Origin: Spiroplasma sp. SV19
Lineage (GTDB): Bacteria > Bacillota_I > Bacilli_A > Mycoplasmatales > Mycoplasmataceae
Direction of reading: 5' to 3'
Assembly (NCBI RefSeq): GCF_030060925.1
Contig: NZ_CP045455.1
Span: forward strand, 868,001 to 932,000
DNA: 64,000 nucleotides
The notes beneath the pieces are model-generated. The model searched no databases. It was given only the letters and a program-made list of their open reading frames with translations, and was not told where the DNA came from. The position numbers were made by a program, and so were the translations under genes. Positions 1,782 through 60,461 of the stretch are shown here, piece by piece (the stretch's first letter is position 1; each line of letters begins with the position of its first letter).

Positions 1782-2467
1782 ATGAAAATAGATTTTTACA
1801 TTGATGAATCTGGTGGTATTAATACTCATTATTTCAGTATAGGTGGTTTAATACTTGTTAACAAAAATAATAAAGATAAAATTAAAAAAATTTTAGGAGT
1901 GTATTAAAAAAATTAAAATTAAAATTGGTCAAGATATTAAAAAGAACTAAAAGCAAAGGATACTAATCTAGAACAAAAACAATTTATTTTTCAAAAATTA
2001 AAAAATTATAACCAAGAGTTTGTTTCTATTTCATGTAATATGCTTAAATATAAAGAAACATCAAAAAACAGGAATATTACTATAGTTTATAACTATTTGG
2101 TAAAGAAATTACTTGAAAATGTATTTTTATCTAAATCAATAGTAAATAATTGTATTGAAAATAATGTTGAAGAATGTGAGATTAATTTATATTGTGATAA
2201 TAGAAATATATCAGTAAATAAATTAAAATTTCTTGAAGAATATTTAAATACTGAATTTTCATTATGCTCTGATACAGTTAAATTTTATTTCAAAGTAGTA
2301 TACAAAAATCAGAGCAAACTTTATTAATTCAATATGCTGATTTTATTGTAAATACTAAATATCTTTATATTAATGAATTTGGAAATAATAAAAAGGTAAA
2401 TTTCACAATTTTACCATTATGACATTATATAAACTATAATTTTGATAATTTTTATTATATCTGGTAG
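1782..2467 (+). pseudogene. DUF3800-family protein, frameshifted
   Basis: A ribosome site (GGAGG) and ATG at 1782 open a frame beginning MKIDFYIDESGG, the hallmark N-terminus of DUF3800 (RNase H-like fold). The frame breaks in a poly-A run near 1906, continues in another frame through about 2327, and breaks again. The tail contains LIQYADFIVN, matching the conserved final QxADxxA segment of the family. With at least two frameshifts it should be inactive. DUF3800 proteins are typical cargo of phages and mobile elements. One of few plus-strand genes in the element. Confidence 0.75.
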
Positions 2468-3120: not shown

Positions 3121-3250
3121 TTTACATTTTATAATAATAATATATAATTTAACTAAGGTAAGACATCGGCTAAGTTGGTAAATCCTAAGCGTATGTTAAG
3201 TACGTAACTTCGGTGCACTCAAAGATGCTATTTATAGCATCTTTTTTATT
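3121..3250 (+). ncRNA. Putative small RNA with own promoter and terminator
   Basis: TTTACA (3121) and TATAAT (3143) are spaced 16 bp. The RNA would start near 3156 and end at the perfect hairpin AAGATGCTA/TAGCATCTT followed by T6 (3222-3247), about 92 nt. The part before the terminator is richer in G and C than its surroundings and has a CGTA...TACG stem. It has a D-loop-like stretch (CTAAGTTGGTA) but no T-arm, so I do not call it a tRNA. No riboswitch class matched. It lies upstream of the Cys-rich peptide gene, which has its own promoter candidate. Confidence 0.45.
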
Positions 3251-3368
3251 TTTATATATTTATTTTAGAAAAAATTATATTCTATATTGTGAATTAATTA
3301 ATAGAATTAGGACACTCGCTTTTATAATCTACAATGAGAAATAAAATTTAAATATACTAGTACTTTTA

Positions 3369-4334: not shown

Positions 4335-4816
4335 TATTTAATACCTTCCCTTTCTTTTCGTCGTAAATCTTTTCAAACATCATAATCAGTTTTTAATTGT
4401 TCTTCAAATTCTTTAATACAATCAATTTCATTTAATAATTCACTGTTTTCACCTGGGTTATTTAATAAATTTAAGTCAACACCTAATTGTTTTGCTAAAA
4501 TATTAAACATATATCTTGTTCTGTAATTTGTTACAATTTGTTGTTGAAGTAACAATGACATTAAATCATCAGTATAATTTTTATCAGCTTTTAATAATAA
4601 TTTAGTCGCCTTTAAAATTTCTTCACGAACAATATTTTGCACTAAATCGATATTGTTTTCTAAATTTTGCTTTTGGATTGATGAAACATAATGAATTGTT
4701 AACAGCTCATTGATCGAATTATATTTTGCTTTGTTACTTTCAATAAATAAATTATGGGCATTAATTTGATCTAAATTCCGTAATTTAAATCTAACCTCAA
4801 CTACTTTTTTACTCAT
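4334..4816 (-). CDS. Hypothetical plasmid-type helical protein
   Basis: 160 residues. I choose ATG 4816 because GAGGTGA precedes it; a GTG three codons upstream would lie inside that ribosome site. Soluble and strongly helical, with one TGA Trp near the C-terminus and a basic end (KDLRRKEREGIK). It sits between HU-like and membrane genes in a tight operon. Possibly DNA-binding or a relaxosome accessory protein by context only. Confidence 0.6.
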
Positions 4817-5099
4817 TGCTCTCACCTCGAAAATATTTATTGAACTTTTGCGATGGTGAAAATGAAACAGTTTTTGATGTTATAACTTTAAATTGCTTTT
4901 TATTTAAAATGACTTCTTCTCTCGTAACAATTAAAGTTTTAAACTTACCAAAATTAGCAATTAATACTTCATCATTATTTTTAACTAAATCTGATAATAT
5001 CAGAAAAGTTTGATTTACTATTTCCTTTGCTTTTTTCTTAGTTAAAGAACAATTAATAGCTAATGTTGTTATTAAATCATTAGTTGTCTTCTTTTTCAT
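4809..5099 (-). CDS. HU/IHF-like DNA-binding protein
   Basis: 96 residues from ATG 5099. The pattern fits HU: N-terminal helices (MKKKTTNDLITTLA), LSDLVKNNDEVLIANFGKF matching the family's ...GF G.F core, and a beta-arm region ending SFSPSQKFNKYF, like the HU FxPGxxLK end. HU proteins bend DNA. A plasmid copy may help assemble replication or transfer complexes. It overlaps the next gene's start by 8 nt and its own start lies inside the upstream RHH gene. The first 15 residues of a longer frame are rejected because GAAGGA precedes this ATG. Confidence 0.8.
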   Translation of the reverse strand: MKKKTTNDLITTLAINCSLTKKKAKEIVNQTFLILSDLVKNNDEVLIANFGKFKTLIVTREEVILNKKQFKVITSKTVSFSPSQKFNKYFRGESNE

Positions 5100-5250
5100 G
5101 TTTTTGCATTCCTTCTTTAATAAAATGACGAATAACATTAGCAAGGGAATGATCCTTATCAGTATATTGCTGTAATTGGTTGTACATGTTCTTTGAAATT
5201 TTTAATTGGATTTTACAAGAATTTGCAGGTTGCTTGTTTTTTTGTTTCAT
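5080..5250 (-). CDS. Ribbon-helix-helix (CopG-like) protein
   Basis: 56 residues from ATG 5250. A short basic N-terminus, a beta strand (KIQLKIS), then two helices (KNMYNQLQQYTD, SLANVIRHFIKEGMQ) is the usual RHH layout. Such proteins are DNA-binding repressors or partition/relaxosome factors on plasmids. The 3' end overlaps the HU-like gene by 20 nt. It probably autoregulates this small operon, though no operator is identifiable. Confidence 0.65.
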   Translation of the reverse strand: MKQKNKQPANSCKIQLKISKNMYNQLQQYTDKDHSLANVIRHFIKEGMQKHEKEDN

Positions 5251-5276: not shown

Positions 5277-7943
5277 TTAATTTTCAGTTAATTTAATCCC
5301 AAATGCTGCTTGTTCATCTTCAGACAATTCAACATGTAAACAATGACGATTATAGTCAGTTACCATAAACAACATATCGCCTCGTTTAGCCCCGGCACAA
5401 AAACTTATTTCATTATCAGATAAACCGCCTGAAGCACTATAAAGTTCACTGACATCATGTAAGTCTTTTTGTTTTAATTTTAAAATCCCAACATATTGGG
5501 CATTATTTAAAATAGCGGTTGCTTCTCGTTCTAATTCTGGGGTTGCTTTAAAATCAGATAAATTTTGTGTAACGAGCATCACACCCCCATTAAAACCACG
5601 AATCATTTTAACTGTTTCAAATAAAAATTTTAAAGCTTGGGGATTTTGTTTATCAATAACAATATGAGCTTCATCAACCGCTAAAATAATTTCATTATTA
5701 GTATTAAAACGATTATTATTAATTTCAGTACGGATGAAATTTAGCATTAAAAACATTTGTGCTTTTAAAACTTGCGATTTTGAATATAATGTTTGAATAT
5801 CCAAAACAGTTAATAAATTATCCCCCAAATTAATTGTTGAATGACAATTTCATAGCGCAGCATACTTACCAAATTCAGTAAAATCATATTTTATTATTTT
5901 TGATATTTTATTTAAAATTTCTTCTTCACCAACATCTGGTTTTATTGTTAATAGAAACTTAGTTAATTCAGTAAAAGTTGGTCAGTCGCTATTTTTCATT
6001 TTCCGAAATTTATTAATATCATTAATTTCTAAACTCATATAAAAATCTAAGATTCGTTGAATTAAATATCCCACTTCTTCGTCTTTTAACGATGGATGAG
6101 TAAAATGAAAAAATGTTTCTAATACTTGCAAATGATCACCGATGATTGTTTTGATATCTATTGTTTTATCGATGTTTGTGTTAATTTGCAAAGGATTGAA
6201 ATGCCCTTTTGAACCAGTTCCAACATCAATTCAATTACCATTATGATAATCACAAAGTTTACCAAACTCACGTTTTGGATCAATTATAATAACCCTTCTT
6301 CCTAAGGCAATATGGTAATTCAAAAATTTTGATACCGTTGTTGTTTTCCCACCCCCTGTTGTTCCAATAAAAAAGGCGTTTGAATTTTGATAATCACCAC
6401 CCCGGCGAAACTGGTCAGAAAAAACAACATCCCCAGTGCTGTTATAACCAATAAAGAGCCCCTTTTCGTCTTCTAAAGCATTGTTCATAAAGGGATATGA
6501 ATTCCCTAAGGTAGAACATGGCATTTCGTGCGAATTTGTATAAGCTGTTGGGTCAGTTGGTTTTGGTAACATTCCACTATAACCATCAATTTGTTTAAAT
6601 AAAAGATAGTCCATTTTCATGTTCTGTGTTTTTAATAAAAGTTCTAAACTTTCTTCTGCTTGACGTAAACTTGGTTTATTAACTCCATAATTCAAAAATA
6701 ACACATTAACCCTTTTTACTATTTCTTCACCAGCAGAAATTAATTGCACTAAATTTTCAAAAGATTGATATTGATGCTCTTTTTCTGATTTATTAACAGT
6801 TTTTTTAACTGAAAATAAATTCGTTCTAGCGTTAACCATTGCTCGGTGCAATTGTTCTTTTACTGCTTCATGATTAGTACTTGAAATATTAAAAATAACT
6901 GTACTATCAGTTGTACATAATTTTGCCCCTCAGCCATGATTTGGATATATTGGATATTCCTTAATCCCCTTTAAAGAATAATAGGCATCATTAATCTTAA
7001 AATAATTTTGAGTAAAAGTGATGTTATCCAATGCTAATAAGTCATTTAACTTAGTAGCATATTCATCAATAACTTTGTTTGAAAATGGTTCATCATAAGG
7101 ATTAAAAATTAATTTGATGGTATTCACTAAATCATATTTATTAACGTTAACGGCAAGTAAATTACTTTCATTTATTTTAGCTTTTATTAAGCGCATATTT
7201 TTATTTAATTTAGAAATATCACGATCATAAATAAATAAAATAAACATTTTTTGGGTTGCAGAATAACCCAAAATTCCTCCCTGATCAGAATATATTCTTT
7301 CATAACCTTTTAATTGCTTAATTCGACTGTTATAGGCTTTATCAGATAATATGTTAAGTTCTTTTAAATTTTTTAACTTAATCATAATATCTTTTAAATA
7401 ATTTATGTTTTTATTTAAATTATAAGGCTTATCTAACTTAACTAAACTAATTTGACAGTTAATTAAACGAAATACTTCACTTAACTGATTTAGTCGTAAC
7501 TCTTGTTCTGAATAATCTAATGTTGTAATATTAAAGCCCTTAATTTCAATTGCACCAACAAATCATTTTTTACCACCCTCTAAAATTGAAGTTTCCAAAC
7601 ATGTTTCATGTAACTTACGATAAGGCATTAAAAGTGATGTATTATTATTTTTACTATCAATTGTAAACTTTTTCTTTTTCGCTAAAAAAATGAAACCACG
7701 AATAATAATCATATAAATTCGACCATTATATTTCTCAGAATTAATTAATGACAACATTAAAAACATAAAAATTGTAACACCAAGGATGATTCGTACTAAA
7801 GTACTAAAAACAGTTAAATTATATCCAACGATAAATGAAATGATTGCATAACCAACCGCAAAAGCTAAATCTAAAAGGGAAAAATTATCTTTTAATTTTA
7901 ACTTTTGTTTTTTTAACTGTGGTGGAATAATACTTTGGCTCAT
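5277..7943 (-). CDS. traE: TraE/VirB4-type conjugation ATPase with N-terminal PrgI/VirB3-like domain
   Basis: One 888-residue frame with several TGA Trp codons. Residues 1-100 are a PrgI/VirB3-like membrane domain with two hydrophobic segments. The rest is VirB4: Walker A GTTGGGKT (527-534) and Walker B LAVDEAH (754-760), with a C-terminal MLVTQNL sensor region. VirB4 ATPases energise type IV secretion and contact VirD4. The fusion merges two genes that are separate in many Gram-positive systems. The start is adjacent to the upstream stop (TAAATG). Related TraE proteins are known from Spiroplasma plasmids. It appears intact. Confidence 0.88.
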
Positions 7944-9276: not shown

Positions 9277-9305
9277 ATATCTGCATTTCTCCATAATTTT
9301 TATTT

Positions 9306-9390
9306 TGTCATATACCAATATAAAAAACACATGTCAGACATTTAAAAATGTCTGACATGTGTCATTGGTCATCTACAGAGATATTATACC
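9306..9390 (-). promoter_or_regulatory. Promoter plus leader ORF plus hairpin cassette, copy 3
   Basis: The inverted repeat is perfect here: ACACATGTCAGACATTT on one arm and its complement on the other, with a 2-base loop, then T6 on the minus strand. The -10 is TATAAT again. The leader ORF from ATG in GTAGATGACC reads through (TGA as Trp) into the 8788 gene in frame. Confidence 0.6.
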
Positions 9391-10454: not shown

Positions 10455-10481
10455 AAACAAGATTTATTTCAAATCTTGTTT
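10455..10481 (-). terminator. Terminator of the traG operon
   Basis: AAACAAGATTT/AAATCTTGTTT around a 5-base loop, followed on the minus strand by a T-rich run. The stem covers the last codons and stop of traG. Confidence 0.7.
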
Positions 10482-12728
10482 ATTCTTTGCCACGATTAAG
10501 TTTTTGGTTTGTTCCTTGTTCAATTTTGTTTTAATATTGCGATATTTTTCAACAATTGCACGTTCTTCGGGCGTACGATCAAGGGGTGATTTAGCTAAGA
10601 GATTATTAATATTTGGAATATTGATTTCATTTTTTGCTTCAGTAATTTCTCGTTTAGTTTCCTGTTCAATTAAAATATCGTATTTATCATCAAGTTTTCC
10701 TGGGATATATGCAAATAAATCAAAATAATAATCTGTTAAAAAATTAACGGTATTAATTGTTTTTGGTTTTTGTTCTTTTCCCAAATTAAATTCCTTAGCA
10801 AATTTTCAACTAGATTCCATATAAACTTTAGCTGGATTTTCTCTTGCTGAGAAAACAACACCATATGGATTTTTCAATTTAAATAAATCACTCGCTTTAA
10901 TTAACTCCATCCCTTCTAAACGAGTTTGGGGTGGATTCTTAATTATTTTTTTCGTTTTTGGATCACGAGAAGTTGAATAAGTTATTACTTCAACGGTTTG
11001 AATTCCTAGCATCTCACTATATTCTTTTGCTGTCGTAATTTCGCCACTGGAAATATAAATGTTTAAACTACAGTTGGATTTAATCACACTACCATCTTCT
11101 TGGCCATACTTTTTATATAGTTGCTTAAAATCTTGTAAAATAATTAAAAAATACATTCCCCGACTTCGCGCCACTGTAACAAATCCTTGAAAATTTGGAA
11201 TTGTTGGCATATTTCCAAACTCATCCAAATAAAACTGAATATCGCGTGGTAAGCGCTTATTTTTGCTTTCGTTAGCAATTGCAACATTAGCTTTATATAA
11301 TTGTGTTACTAGTAAACTGGCAAAAATATGTCGATTTGTTTTTTCATCGGGAACAATTAAAAACAAGGCTTTTGGTTTTTCGGTAAAGCGAAATAAATCA
11401 ATATCATTTTTGCAAACGATTGATTGAATTCCAATATCTTGATAGATTTGTAAGCCTTTATCTAACGTTGAAAAGATTGACCCCTGCTCTTTGTCACCTG
11501 TTCCCAAGGCGTTTGCCCCAACTATTCTAGCAAAAGATTTTATTGGCAATTTATTAAACCATGTTTTTAAGCGTTTACGATCACTACATAAAACCGCAAT
11601 TGTCGGTAAATTAAACATTTCTAACGGCAAAGCATCTAAATCATTAACTAGTAGTTCTAACATTCCGAGCATTACACATTTAGCAACACTACCAGCCATT
11701 GCTGAAAAATGATCATTTTCATGTCCTTTTAAGGGTCAAATTGTTGTGATTAAATCATTAATTTCATCAATTGCTTTGTCCCGATATTCTAATCGTAATG
11801 CCTCGCAGAACTTGTTTGCTTTAACTTCATCATAGAATCACATCTTCTCAAAGACAATTACTTTATTACTAACATTATTGAAGCAGTTATCACAAGATTG
11901 TTCATCATGATCATAGCATTGATAATTATCTAACTTTATTTTTAAATCCTCAATTGAATTAAATGTAACTAATCGAATTTGTTGTTCAATTGTAACTGCA
12001 TCATAATAATATTTATAAGCAATGGCCAATGGATTTCACGAAGATGATGATTTTGCATCACGTAAATCAAGTGTTAAAACTTGATAACCATTTTCTGCTA
12101 ATGGCTTTGATAAATTACTATATAATTCACCTTTTGGATCTGTAAAAACCATACATGGCTTTTGATCATATTCTACTTTTGAATTATAAATCGCACTGGG
12201 CATTACTACTTTTTGCGACTTTCCACTATTTGTTGCTCCTAAAACTAAAGCATGGGTATTAGCTTTAATGTTAAAAACAAAATCATTTTTTGTTTTGGTA
12301 AAACGAACTACTCACCCGGGTATATTTATTTCCGTATTGGCAGGATATAATTCGTTAAAATCAGTAACATTACCTTTTTTCTCTAATTCATCTACGATTC
12401 ATTTCGCTGTTCCATATTCAGTAGAATTGCTATCTTTAACTTGCACTTTCCGATATTCTTTCAAACATACAATTCATAAAATCAATCCTGTTCAAAATAG
12501 TAATGTTGATACTAAACTTAATACAACAATAAATACTATATTTGATTGCATAAAAATTCACAAAAATTGAAAATATTTTAAAAGTTTAAATCCCTCCATT
12601 TTAAATACTTTAAAACAAGGAATTAAAATAACTACTAAGGTAAGAAAAAATGGAAAGACAATTAAGCCATATGTTAAATGTTCCTTTCGAATTTTACTTC
12701 AAAATTGCTTTTTTTCATTAAGAAACAT
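10464..12728 (-). CDS. traG: VirD4/TraG-type coupling protein
   Basis: 754 residues with several TGA Trp codons. Two N-terminal membrane segments (about 20-38 and 63-88) are followed by Walker A GATNSGKS (164-171) and Walker B YLDEFGN (500-506), the diagnostic order of type IV coupling proteins. These proteins recruit the relaxase-DNA complex to the secretion channel. The start overlaps the upstream small membrane gene by 11 nt. A hairpin terminator covers the stop. It appears intact, so with VirB4 the element keeps two of its main transfer ATPases. Confidence 0.9.
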
Positions 12729-13011: not shown

Positions 13012-13037
13012 AATTCCTCCTATCATTAAATTATTAT

Positions 13038-13128
13038 TGTCATTTACCAAATAAAAAACACATGCATACGATAAAAATCGTAGCATGTGTCATTGGTCAT
13101 CTACACAAATATTATACTATAAAAATTA
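13038..13128 (-). promoter_or_regulatory. Promoter plus leader ORF plus hairpin cassette, copy 4
   Basis: The outer parts match copies 1-3, but the inner stem has different bases on both arms (TACGAT against ATCGTA) and still pairs. The inner segment is 3 nt shorter, so the leader ORF frame is kept (MTNDTCYDFYRMHVFF). It drives the traG operon. Confidence 0.65.
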
Positions 13129-22413: not shown

Positions 22414-24204
22414 TTAACTCACTATGTTTTTACAATCTGGATAATTATTACAAGCTTTAAACAAATTTCCTTTATAACTTTTCCGTTGAATAATATAACC
22501 TATCTGACATTTACTACATTTTATAGAATCTTTAAAAATAACATTTGTGGCATTACTATAATCTAAAATAAAATTCTTATAAAATAATTTTAAATATTCC
22601 GTTTTATTAATTTTATTATCAGCAATGTGATCTAAGATGTCTTCCATTTCCGAAGTATATTTTTCATTAATAATGTTTGCAAAATATTTTTGTAAAATAG
22701 TATAGGCTTTTATCCCATTATCGGTAGGAACAATACTTTTTTTCTCAAATTTGATGTACTCTCTATTAATCAAAGTTTTCATAACAGTTGCATAGGTTGA
22801 AGGGCGTCCTACTCCTTCTATTTCTAATTTCTTAATTAAATTTGGTTCAGTGTATCTAGCGTTAGGTTTTGTAAAATTTTGTTCTGCTAATCATTCTGTA
22901 GTTAAATTTAGGATTTGGCCAATTTCAAATTGATAATCAAAACTATTTAAAGCTATTTCTTGGAGATCATAATAACTAGTAAAAGTATATTTTTTATAAT
23001 CCATTTTACAGATATAACCATTATTCTCAAAAAGAACTCGATATTTTTTTCCCACTTCGTTTGCCATTAAAGCAAATAACGTATTATTATAAATTAATTC
23101 ATATAGCATAAATTCACTATGATTGCCAATTTCTCTTTTAGCTTGCTCAACTGTTAACGAAATATTTGTTGGGCGGATTGCTTCATGGGCATCTTGAGCA
23201 TTTTCTCCTAATTTCTTTGGTTTATAACTGCCAACATACTCTTTGCCATAATTATTTTCAATATATTCATATGTATCTAAAACAAAATCATCATTTATTC
23301 GAACGGAATCAGTTCTTGGATATGTAATATAACCCGTTTCAAATAAATGCTGTAGTAAACTTGTTGTTCTTTCACTTGGGAAATTTAACATTACACTAGC
23401 ATATTGTAAAATACTTGATGTTGTAAAAGGAGTGTATCTATTTTTGCTAAAATTTTCTATCATAATTTCTTTTACAACCAATTTATTTGATAATTCATTT
23501 AATATTTGATCTGCTAATGTTTTTGAATTAATTACTTTTTCTTTTACAATTTCTTGTTTTGCTTTATTTAAAAATAATTCAATATCATTACCATTTTGAT
23601 ATTCTTGTTTAATTGTCCAATATTCTAACTTGTTATGCTCTTTTCGTTCTAATTCACGTTCAACAACTAATTTTAAAGCGACCGATTGTACACGCCCTGC
23701 TGATTTTAAATTAACTGCTTTTTGTAACAACCCGGATAATTTAAAACCCATTATCCGGTCAATCATTTGGCGAGCTTGTTGGGCATTAACCAAACTATAA
23801 TTTATCGCACTTTGTTTTGCAAAAGCTTCTTTAACTGCTTTCTCCGTAATTTCATTAAATATTAAACGAACTGCTTTATTTTTACAGTTTAATTGTTCTT
23901 GTAAATGCCAAGCAATTGCTTCGCCTTCGCGGTCAGGGTCAGTCGCTAAAATAACCTTATCAACTTTTTTTGATAGCTCATGCAATTGTTTAACTGTATC
24001 TTTTTTAGTTTCTAATAAATTATAAACGGGAGTCATTGTTTCTAAATCAATTCCTAATGCATATTTTTGATTCTTAATAGCTAGCTCAGTTATATGTCCC
24101 ATCGAAGCTTTTACAATAAAATTATGGTTAGGAAAGGCTTGTTCCAAATAAGCTTTAACTTTTGTTATTTTGTTTGGTGATTCTAAAATCACTAAATACT
24201 TCAA
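22414..24204 (-). CDS. topA: DNA topoisomerase I (type IA)
   Basis: 596 residues. The start is TTG 24204, preceded by GAAGG; no ATG fits. Toprim motifs are ILESPNK (6-12) and ATDPDREGEA (87-96). The catalytic tyrosine is Y295 in YITYPRTDS. One C-terminal four-Cys zinc ribbon (CSKCQ...CNNYPDC) closes the protein. Type IA enzymes relax negative supercoils through a 5'-phosphotyrosine link. Plasmid and ICE copies help transfer or replication. It is shorter than chromosomal TopA with multiple ribbons, so I infer an element-encoded paralogue. A duplicated copy of its first 20 codons is at 25438-25569. Confidence 0.9.
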
Positions 24205-25437: not shown

Positions 25438-25569
25438 CTAATTCACTTTTCCTCTAACAAATTGATCATCTTTATTTGATAATAAAACTTGTAATTCTTT
25501 TGCTTGTTGTAAATAAGTTTTAACTTTTGTTATTTTGTTAGGTGATTCTAATACGACTAAATATTTCAA
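25438..25569 (-). pseudogene. Chimeric remnant: topA 5' end joined to the 3' end of the 26299 gene
   Basis: A 43-codon frame from TTG 25569. Its first about 20 codons copy the topA start (LESPNKITKVK, same ribosome site GAAGG), and the last 23 copy the C-terminus of the protein at 26299 (QQAKELQVLLSNKDDQ). The joint falls where both parents share TATTT..AACAAGC. Looks like a deletion/recombination scar, not a gene. Confidence 0.7.
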
Positions 25570-26298: not shown

Positions 26299-26751
26299 TT
26301 AGTTTATTTCTCCTCTAACAAACTGGTCATCTTTATTTGATAATAAAACTTGTAATTCTTTTGCTTGTTGTAAATATTGCTTACTATTATTTTTTTTAAG
26401 AATTTCAAAGGCTTCATAAAGTTTTTTGCCATTGATGGGAATTATTTCTTCCACCCCTTTTTCTGTATAAATAATTTGTTCATAATCTTTATTAAAAAGA
26501 CATGCCGTTGCAAAATACCCGATTGGGCAATACTCATGGTTAGGATTATTTTCACCAACGCCCAAGCATGTTTCATCAAATTTACAAGGTCACTTTTTAC
26601 TAACTCGAAATCATTCCCGTGATCATCAAATCACAGCTTGAGGATTAACTGGGGATTGTACCGCAAAAGCTGTTTTCTTTTCAGTTCATTTTATTAAATA
26701 ACGCTTATTTAGAAAAACTTGTTCCTTGATTTGTTCCAAGATATACACCAT
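26299..26751 (-). CDS. Hypothetical protein with conserved Cys
   Basis: 150 residues from ATG 26751, or 146 from TTG 26739, which is better spaced from the AAGGATGG. Trp-rich N-terminal half (several TGA), then KWPCKFDETCLGVG...EYCPIGYFATACLF with four or five Cys that may bind metal. Its start overlaps the end of the upstream gene. The 3' end is duplicated in the topA chimera. Function unknown. Confidence 0.55.
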
Positions 26752-27160
26752 CCTTTCAACAATCTGGTTCATCAATATGTTTTAAATCTTCTAACAACTT
26801 TTGTATATCAATATCTTCATCATTATTTATTGTGGTTAACTCTTGGTGACTATTATTTGTTTTTTTATTTAACTTACTAATAAAAACCGCAATTATTTCT
26901 GAACCATTAATGTAATCAACCATTGTAGTTAAATCATCTTTGTTAAAAACTGGATATAAGTTTTGTGAAATTCCAACTTTAAAGCAATTAATAAAAGCTT
27001 CATCGTTATATACTCAACTCTTTTGCACATAAAATACTTTATTATCGGTATTTGGAATATTAATAAAGTAACCTAATAGTTTATTTTGATTGTTTTTATC
27101 ATATATTTTTGAATGTATTTCAGATGTTAAAATATATAAATCCGTTATATTCTTTGCCAT
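26705..27160 (-). CDS. Hypothetical acidic protein
   Basis: 151 residues from ATG 27160. Soluble; the N-terminal part (LYILTSEIHSKIYDK...LLGYFINIP) looks alpha/beta, and residues 105-145 are acidic (INNDEDIDIQKLLEDLKH). Overlaps the next gene by about 47 nt. No family recognised. Confidence 0.55.
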
Positions 27161-27783: not shown

Positions 27784-28129
27784 TGAGAATAATCATTGAT
27801 TTTTTTAACCTCCTCCCCTCATTGTTTTTTAAGCAATCTCTAAATCTTTGTTTTAATCAATGATGTGTCTGCAAAATTAATTAATTTTACGCACTTAAAA
27901 TAGCTTTTCATAACTAACCTGTTGTTCTCTCTTAGTTTTAAAAGCTAAATATTATTTAATTAAGTTGCGCGCTTGATATGATTTTGACAAATAAGTTTTG
28001 ATATTTTAATAAAATTTAAAATAAGTCTGTAGATTGACTTTTGACACATTATTTAATTATATTTAAGTTATGTATAATATTTGTGTAAATGAAATAATCT
28101 TTATCCCCTTTTATCGCTTCCTTTCACCA
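27784..28129. other. Intergenic region at the element/chromosome boundary
   Basis: No convincing gene. It holds the ribosome site and upstream region of the 27783 gene, and on the plus strand a TATAAT at about 28072 without a clear product. The boundary of the accessory element probably lies here or just to the right. No direct repeat could be identified because the other end is outside the window. Confidence 0.4.
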
Positions 28130-28262
28130 AACACATATACATAACTCTTGAGACTAATCGCTAATTATATTATCAACAACTATTTAGAAAGGAGGTTCTC
28201 GTAGGGTTTAGAGAACTTTTTATACGAAGTTTGACTAATCCCAAGAATTATGCATATGTGTT
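28130..28262 (-). ncRNA. Structured RNA with a 30-bp helix, unidentified
   Basis: Arms 28130-28159 and 28233-28262 pair over 30 positions: 25 Watson-Crick pairs and five that are A/C on the plus strand but G-U on the minus strand. That points to selection on a minus-strand RNA. The 73-nt interior contains a hairpin GTTCTC/GAGAAC and two unpaired flanks. A long closing stem, an asymmetric bubble and an apical hairpin resemble 6S RNA in outline only. Other options: leader of downstream genes, or element-end structure. Confidence 0.5.
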
Positions 28263-28275
28263 CCTAAATAAGTAA

Positions 28276-28299
28276 AAAAGACTGATTTTTCAGTCTTTT
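28276..28299. terminator. Bidirectional terminator
   Basis: AAAAGACTGA/TCAGTCTTTT with a 4-base loop and A/T runs on both sides, between rpoC and the structured RNA. Confidence 0.7.
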
Positions 28300-28350
28300 T
28301 GTTGATTGTTATAAAATTAGTCTTGGTTCCAATTATTTCATCCTATCTTA

Positions 28351-28372
28351 AAAAAAGACCATCTGGTCTTTT
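28351..28372 (-). terminator. rpoC terminator
   Basis: AAGACCA-TC-TGGTCTT followed by T-run on the minus strand, 4 nt after the rpoC stop. Confidence 0.75.
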
Positions 28373-28375
28373 CTC

Positions 28376-32128
<3,753 letters not shown>

Positions 32129-60262: not shown

Positions 60263-60430
60263 AATCCTATTTACCTAGTAGGACTCTTATTAAATTTATA
60301 AGGCCGGTCTACTGGCTTAACTTCATCCTACTAGTTAACCCTTCCCAAATTATTATTCAGTGGTTTATTAACATTCGTCAGTTTTACAGTTGCTAGGACA
60401 GCTTAAGACTTTCACTTAATTCCCTTTAAT
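60263..60430 (-). promoter_or_regulatory. Cobalamin-type riboswitch
   Basis: On the minus strand the conserved core appears in order: GGGAA, AGTGAAAGTC, AGCTGTCCTAGCAACTGTAA, CCACTG, TTGGGAAGGG, GATGAAG and the B12 box AAGCCAGTAGACCGGCC. A 7-bp hairpin (60263-60285) with a 9-base loop downstream fits the P13 position, and CCTACTAG there can pair with CTAGTAGG or AGTAG in the core. 60 nt later comes the ribosome site of the DUF4430 gene, so translation control is likely. Confidence 0.8.
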
Positions 60431-60461
60431 CCTTTATAAACTTTTAAAGTAGTCTACTTTT

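Follow-up and report, generated by a model that had tools for sequence, protein, structure and literature searches.

The window analysed here, a stretch of 64,000 nucleotides from Spiroplasma sp. SV19, is occupied up to position 28347 by part of a conjugative element. Close to that end of the element lies an inverted repeat whose two 30-nt arms (28130-28159 and 28233-28262) are separated by 73 nt. The features considered below are as follows:

1-28347: part of the element lying in the window, its identified genes being on the minus strand
4809-5144, minus strand: element gene for an HU-like protein
5277-7943, minus strand: element gene for VirB4
10464-12728, minus strand: element gene for VirD4
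22414-24204, minus strand: element gene for a topoisomerase
28115-28129, minus strand: purine-rich, Shine-Dalgarno-like stretch just 3' of the helix
28130-28262, minus strand: candidate structured RNA, a 30-bp closing helix around a 73-nt inner domain
28185-28196, minus strand: anti-Shine-Dalgarno-like stretch ACCUCCUUUCUA, identical to the 3' end of the 16S rRNA of the same genome
28195-28216, minus strand: inner hairpin GUUCUC/GAGAAC of the RNA fold
28275-28300, minus strand: terminator-like hairpin that has a T run and lies 12 nt upstream of the helix
28308-28313, minus strand: candidate -10 box TATAAC, weak and with no -35, from which transcription would begin just ahead of the terminator hairpin
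28326-28347, minus strand: terminal inverted repeat at the RNA end, sharing 19 of its 22 bases with the far end
28348-28355: target-site duplication of 8 bp (plus strand TTAAAAAA), which falls within the T run belonging to the terminator-like hairpin behind rpoC

The carrying conjugative element

The sequence-only reading of this DNA had set the structure between rpoC and a mobile element; it lies instead inside that element, 85 bases from the end at 28347 and opposite the far end. Judged from its ends, the element covers G000:C1:850,881-896,347 (about 45.5 kb; G000 being the source genome), which corresponds to window positions 1-28347 together with locus L212, and in the window it also encodes DNA methylases on the minus strand. 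Type IV secretion genes are present (T4SS-DNA_transf, E 3.6e-37; P-loop_TraG, E 6.7e-16). A second element of the same genome, which carries another copy of the structure, extends over approximately 58,655-89,364 (30.7 kb, again from its ends; loci L054 and L213) and encodes a DnaG-type primase and a weak relaxase match (PF03432, E 4.2e-4). Its far end is adjoined by a gene of the UPF0236 family (PF06782, E 1.4e-26), which we take to be a transposase family. This gene is a single 490-codon frame in the second element (L213 10723-12195), and its counterpart in the window's element seems to be split over two frames (L212 3107-4023).

The terminal inverted repeats are imperfect, reading GATAGGATGAAATAATTGGAAC at the RNA end and GATGGTAAGAAATAATTGGAAC at the far end, and both of the insertions examined are bordered by 8-bp direct repeats (TTTTTTAA for the window's element, TTTTACAA for the second). 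The window's element is inserted between rpoC and rpsL and the second between pyrE and infC (gene names other than those from Pfam assigned by eye), and beyond the far end of each there is a promoter-like TTGACT-17-TATAAT or TAATAT. In the parts of the published account drawn on here, TnGBS elements are described as restricted to streptococci and as inserting 15-17 bp upstream of sigma-A promoters, and transposases of their type as leaving direct repeats of 8 or 9 bp (PMC3942029). Counted from the outer edge of the direct repeat, the -35 TTGACT is at 17 and 18 bp in our two insertions, and counted from the terminal repeat at 25 and 26 bp; the published 15-17 bp may refer to either. The terminal inverted repeats, the 8-bp direct repeats and the type IV secretion genes are likenesses to the TnGBS type, with its p-MULT 3 DDE transposase, and the UPF0236 gene by the far end and the site upstream of a TTGACT promoter are possible ones; TnGBS differs, however, in gene content and in its streptococcal host, and those parts of its description mention no such RNA (PMC3942029). 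The element may be viewed as a TnGBS-like, promoter-upstream insertion in a mollicute, unlike the mycoplasma ICEA, for which the portion of its description used here states random insertion (PMC6030558).

Elements related to this one, with 56-57% identity in VirD4, occur in G015, G017, G018 and G020 and have the appearance of remnants behind lon (named by eye). The 20 kb upstream of them contain no comparable stem; the best were of 18 pairs in both G018 and G015, and in G020 of 42 with 4 mismatches. The ORF at 26299-26775 of the window (minus strand) has relatives, among 60 genomes, only in G000, G014 and G026, i.e. in three of the four genomes that bear the RNA. A short ORF at 25438-25569 (minus strand) has a beginning like that of the topoisomerase and an end like that of the ORF at 26299-26775, as in a recombination chimera.

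The helix and its pairing in nine copies

On the minus strand, the 30 facing positions of the helix comprise 25 Watson-Crick and five G-U pairs without any mismatch, and the five G-U positions become A-C when the plus strand is read, exactly as had been noted from the sequence. Folded as RNA, the minus strand forms these 30 pairs without interruption, followed by a branched inner domain, at -48.6 kcal/mol (z -9.8, with none of 200 shuffles as good); the plus strand of 28130-28262 folds at -32.3 kcal/mol (z -4.0). In a gapless-stem scan of the whole window (loop of at least 40, span of at most 300) this stem ranked first of 13 with a score of 26.4, the second scoring 19.2 and the best stem in 20 randomised windows of equal dinucleotide composition 21.2. 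The scan lengthens the stem to 32 positions, which on the minus strand include six G-U and one A-C, so that strict one-sidedness is limited to the 30 positions and does not continue past the loop end. Since six of the other 12 stems in the window have at least four wobble-type pairs, and one of these six is likewise one-sided, the window's hairpin on its own constitutes modest evidence.

The comparative material came from a search of 60 genomes of the family, which yielded diverged copies, full or partial, in G014, G026 and G023, to be set beside the second copy in the source genome (G000:C1:58702-58882, 99% identity over 181 bases). A covariance model built on eight copies (R1) added a ninth, in G023; as the members of R1, and of the model R2 built on nine, match by construction, this ninth copy is the only additional find of R1 beyond its members and the truncated copy. 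The nine copies analysed are that of the window, the second one of the same genome, four from G014 (a to d), one from G026 and two from G023 (a and b), with the truncated G014 copy (527312-527427), a decayed G023 copy (L097 near 2135) and antisense model hits left out. Two of the nine are atypical in their setting: G014c is a second, tandem copy with a different inner domain and without the terminator, and G023b lies between lipoprotein-like genes, in surroundings with no recognisable element. In L097 of G023 the decayed copy (approximately 2015-2180, plus strand) and a full copy (4662-4791, minus strand) flank a lipoprotein-like gene in opposite orientation.

In a fixed register of 30 pairs, the nine copies provide 270 cells, of which 227 are Watson-Crick, 40 G-U, none A-C and three other; G-U is present in 11 of the 30 columns and A-C in none. 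When the nine copies are aligned, 99.3% of 269 cells are paired and 13 of the 30 pairs are altered on both sides, as where CATAAT in one arm becomes CTAAAT and the opposite arm follows. None of 500 shuffles of this alignment was as good on any of five measures, and shifting the partner by one to three columns leaves only 22.5-49.4% of cells paired. A-C facings are found one or two positions past the loop end in the window, the second copy of the same genome and G014c. Wobbles are equally one-sided in the outer half of the helix (beyond the conserved TTGGGATTAG), so that this half belongs to the folded strand, and in the inner hairpin of the second copy one pair has gone from U-A to U-G, which is again a wobble on the minus strand.

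With columns counted as separate events, the one-sidedness of eleven wobble columns has a chance of about one in a thousand under a symmetric null, although the cells of the helix are not independent because the copies are related by descent, and the comparative base is a narrow one of related copies from four of 14 genomes. Strand-biased mutation could yield one-sided wobbles, but not compensatory changes. The proposal that a folded minus-strand nucleic acid is under selection is thus borne out by the compensatory changes and one-sided wobbles of nine copies, and its pairing is conserved in the homologues.

The distribution of the structure is restricted. R2 matches four of the 14 genomes of the genus; across 320 genomes of the order it matches four at E <= 0.001, all four in the same genus, with no match at that level in the other 306 genomes searched, and a class sample of 296 genomes gave two matches, both from the same genus. 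The searches of order and class used stricter filters, with about ten candidates scored per genome. In another genus R1 gave a weak match (G056, E 0.066, 27.1 bits). Phage records held no match to the RNA, and plasmid records held four, all short stretches with a coverage of 12-20% at E 0.01 or weaker. From genome contigs (85 stretches) and viral contigs (18 stretches), 98 pattern matches were re-scored and are taken as chance, because the best helix extension reached only 13 of 20 pairs; a protein query with an element gene confirmed nothing in the genome contigs.

Surroundings, inner domain and known RNA families

In every copy on a conjugative element the RNA occupies the same element end, in front of the genes, and with one exception a terminator-like hairpin comes just before it. 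Judged by eye over all nine copies, this hairpin precedes the helix in eight, with an imperfect stem in G023b, and is absent from G014c; in the heads of G014 and G026 its T run is present only on the strand of the proposed RNA. Seven copies form element heads (the window, the second copy of the same genome, G014a, G014b, G014d, G026a and G023a), and in every one of them the nearest long upstream ORF is co-oriented with the RNA (that of G014b being unnamed). Directly behind the structure no conserved coding frame is discernible by eye, G023b having a frame of about 20 codons. A promoter scan upstream of the minus-strand RNA found no good promoter, the best site (9/12, 28276-28247) reaching into the helix, and the scan total was six sites against 4.2 expected. 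The candidate -10 box at 28308-28313, which is absent from the scan output, reads TATAAG in the G014 and G026 heads.

The inner domain ranges from 63 to 115 nt among the copies and is variable in sequence, but CUCCUUUCU is kept in seven of nine otherwise diverged inner domains. The 16S rRNA of the source genome ends in TGGATCACCTCCTTTCTATGG, with which the RNA of the window has the 12 bases ACCTCCTTTCTA in common. In G023b the corresponding stretch is CCUCUUUCU, one base shorter than the CCUCCUUUCU of the window, and the inner domain of G014c is without the 16S-like motif. A purine-rich stretch lies no more than about 20 nt behind the helix in all nine copies, as seen by eye.

For a putative pseudoknot between the inner domain and this purine stretch the evidence is mixed, and we do not claim it. 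In RNAduplex comparisons with composition shuffles, which covered eight copies and left out G023b, p was 0.012-0.03 in the second copy of the source genome, G014a, G014b, G014d and G026a, and 0.23 in the window, 0.20 in G023a and 0.96 in G014c. The duplexes of G014 and G026, which are close relatives, include an 8-base match AUGUUCCU/AGGAACAU. The longest contiguous run of pairing was matched by 159-274 of 300 shuffles in the eight copies and by 40 of 300 in G023b. That the motif and the purine stretch both differ in G023b and seven pairs are nevertheless kept is a further point in favour of the pairing. The 30-bp stalk speaks against a pseudoknot, because it keeps the motif and the purine stretch far apart.

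Complementarity in trans is present in the ribosome-binding sites of the element, of which 23 were inspected, with up to nine contiguous bases upstream of the gene at 27160; in the host, rpoC and rpoB were inspected and have seven and five bases, respectively. Since any copy of the 16S end complements ribosome-binding sites, as those of rpoC and rpoB illustrate, the nine-base match shows no specificity. It is not conserved as a trans target, being found in the second copy of the same genome but not in the G014 and G026 relatives.

The long closing stem and apical hairpin had suggested a likeness to 6S RNA. 6S RNA has a central bubble that mimics an open promoter, and the 30-bp helix here, contrary to that suggestion, has no central bubble. 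A search with the Rfam 6S model gave no match at the gathering threshold in the whole window and none up to E 10 at 28050-28380. Permissive Rfam matches at 28050-28380 up to E 10 number seven; none of them is a 6S match and none is above its curated threshold, those over the helix being MIR4208 (24.6 bits against a threshold of 140, E 0.12) and rliB (18.3 bits against 40, E 0.13). The RNA is moreover found in only four of the 14 genomes of the genus, with most copies tied to a mobile element. On the missing match and the missing bubble, 6S RNA is rejected as the identity, and that this should be the 6S RNA of mollicutes is scarcely credible.

A literature search found no description of such an RNA. 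The family appears to be new, although a structured RNA in a mobile element is a known kind of object. Leader and antisense RNAs control plasmid replication or transfer, as do the IncI-alpha repZ pseudoknot leader and CopA. The present RNA is like these in being a structured RNA of a mobile element with complementarity of the Shine-Dalgarno type, but differs in that no conserved frame follows directly behind it (by eye) and in that its evidence for loop-flank pairing is mixed.

The nature and role of the folded strand

With RNA parameters the advantage of the minus strand over the plus strand is 16.3 kcal/mol, whereas with DNA parameters the two are at -17.9 and -15.3 kcal/mol, a difference of 2.6 kcal/mol, so that the strict strand bias is more easily explained by selection on RNA. 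On these computed energies the selected folded minus strand is most likely RNA. The initial claim of a minus-strand RNA therefore stands firmly in its first part, a folded strand seen in nine copies, and as a likelihood in its second, RNA rather than single-stranded DNA.

Our preferred reading, to which we assign a probability of about 0.4, is that an element-encoded RNA shows an anti-Shine-Dalgarno strand on a long stalk and regulates translation. It is favoured by the 12-base identity to the 16S rRNA, its persistence as CUCCUUUCU and the complementary ribosome-binding sites of the element; against it are the want of a good promoter, the loss of the motif in G014c and its shortening in G023b, and the unspecific nature of the complementarity. 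While the folding is well supported, it is the transcription, pairing, target and effect that we infer. Transcription would proceed by read-through of the head terminator or from the weak -10 box just before it, and the long duplex may stabilise the RNA or be cut by RNase III. The anti-Shine-Dalgarno strand would then pair with Shine-Dalgarno sequences, in cis or in trans, and this pairing might damp or time the translation of element messages. A more ambitious version, which is doubtful, has a whole family of mobile-element RNAs presenting a copy of the 16S anti-Shine-Dalgarno tail on a 30-bp stalk; as mobile regulators of translation, these would stand in for the ribosome in pairing with the ribosome-binding sites of element or host messages.

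The main rival, on account of the conjugative nature of the element and the presence of such a site in ICEBs1, is that the minus strand folds as single-stranded DNA in conjugative transfer, either as a single-strand origin or like site, to which RNA polymerase or primase would be drawn to make the second strand, or as part of the transfer origin. G-T is better than A-C in DNA too, so the wobble asymmetry would fit, and the carrier has VirB4 and VirD4, a weak relaxase match and a DnaG-type primase. Behind the structure come several hundred non-coding bases that are partly conserved, and the promoter scan found no strong promoter for an RNA. According to the sections of the source used here, ICEBs1 of Bacillus subtilis possesses an origin that works only in the single-stranded state, its sso1 being predicted to form three stem-loops (PMC4595007). 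The likeness to sso1 and to the sso of rolling-circle plasmids, which is one of description, lies in strand-specific stem-loops within a conjugative element, but three stem-loops are predicted for sso1 (PMC4595007, same sections) where there is one 30-bp stalk here, and it is only with RNA energies that the strand bias of the present structure is large. The near-equal DNA folds would predict weak selection between strands, yet all 40 wobbles of the register are one-sided, and in DNA the conserved 16S-like stretch would serve no evident purpose; we accordingly consider this rival rather unlikely.

Less probable again is a leader of a long element operon that acts on transcription elongation, whether by attenuation or by antitermination, in which the helix would be the partner structure of the terminator ahead of it. 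The hairpin directly upstream in eight of nine copies (by eye) and the identified element genes of the window, which run in the same direction from the RNA end, agree with such a leader, but no clear promoter was found for it, and an alternative pairing between terminator and helix would be hypothetical. A small RNA on the plus strand, running from a promoter-like sequence at 28034-28063 (TTGACT, 18, TATATT, 10/12) to the terminator at 28275-28300, would match the consensus for both signals, if weakly in view of the six sites against 4.2 expected in the scan. In each of the nine copies, however, such an RNA would meet A-C clashes at the G-U positions of the minus strand, the head hairpins of G014 and G026 have their T run on the strand of the minus RNA alone, and in the second copy of the same genome and in G026a more than 100 extra bases intervene between the promoter region and the helix, all of which makes it quite improbable. 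More improbable still is a DNA inverted repeat bound by a transposase or other protein with no folded strand: the position 85 bases from the terminal repeat of the element would suit it, but a bound sequence would stay fixed, whereas the arms co-vary, and the wobbles are one-sided.

Wobble asymmetry in one sequence has thus led to an unlisted structured nucleic acid, which the copies in relatives then confirmed. Should it be transcribed, it would offer a handle on the self-regulation of conjugative transposons in wall-less bacteria, and the 16S-like stretch leads to a testable prediction on translation; if it is instead a DNA structure, it would be a candidate single-strand origin for these elements.

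Several further features of the region may be recorded. Behind the RNA, at approximately 27880-27900 on the minus strand, lies AAGTGCGTAAAA, which we presume to resemble a transfer-origin nick site. A DUF3800-I RNA match at 3143-3254 on the plus strand (47.2 bits against a threshold of 44.2) is a separate hit, and this family, with no match at the helix locus, was rejected as the identity of the structure; the only neighbour of the match examined, a small ORF at 2040-2327, has no Pfam match. A cobalamin riboswitch is found at 60285-60451 on the minus strand (74.8 bits). A MITE-like short repeat with the palindrome ACATGTCAGACATTT...AAATGTCTGACATGT occurs at 140-249, 1512-1603, 9301-9389 and 13037-13122, and also in the second copy of the same genome, in the extra stretch just behind the RNA.
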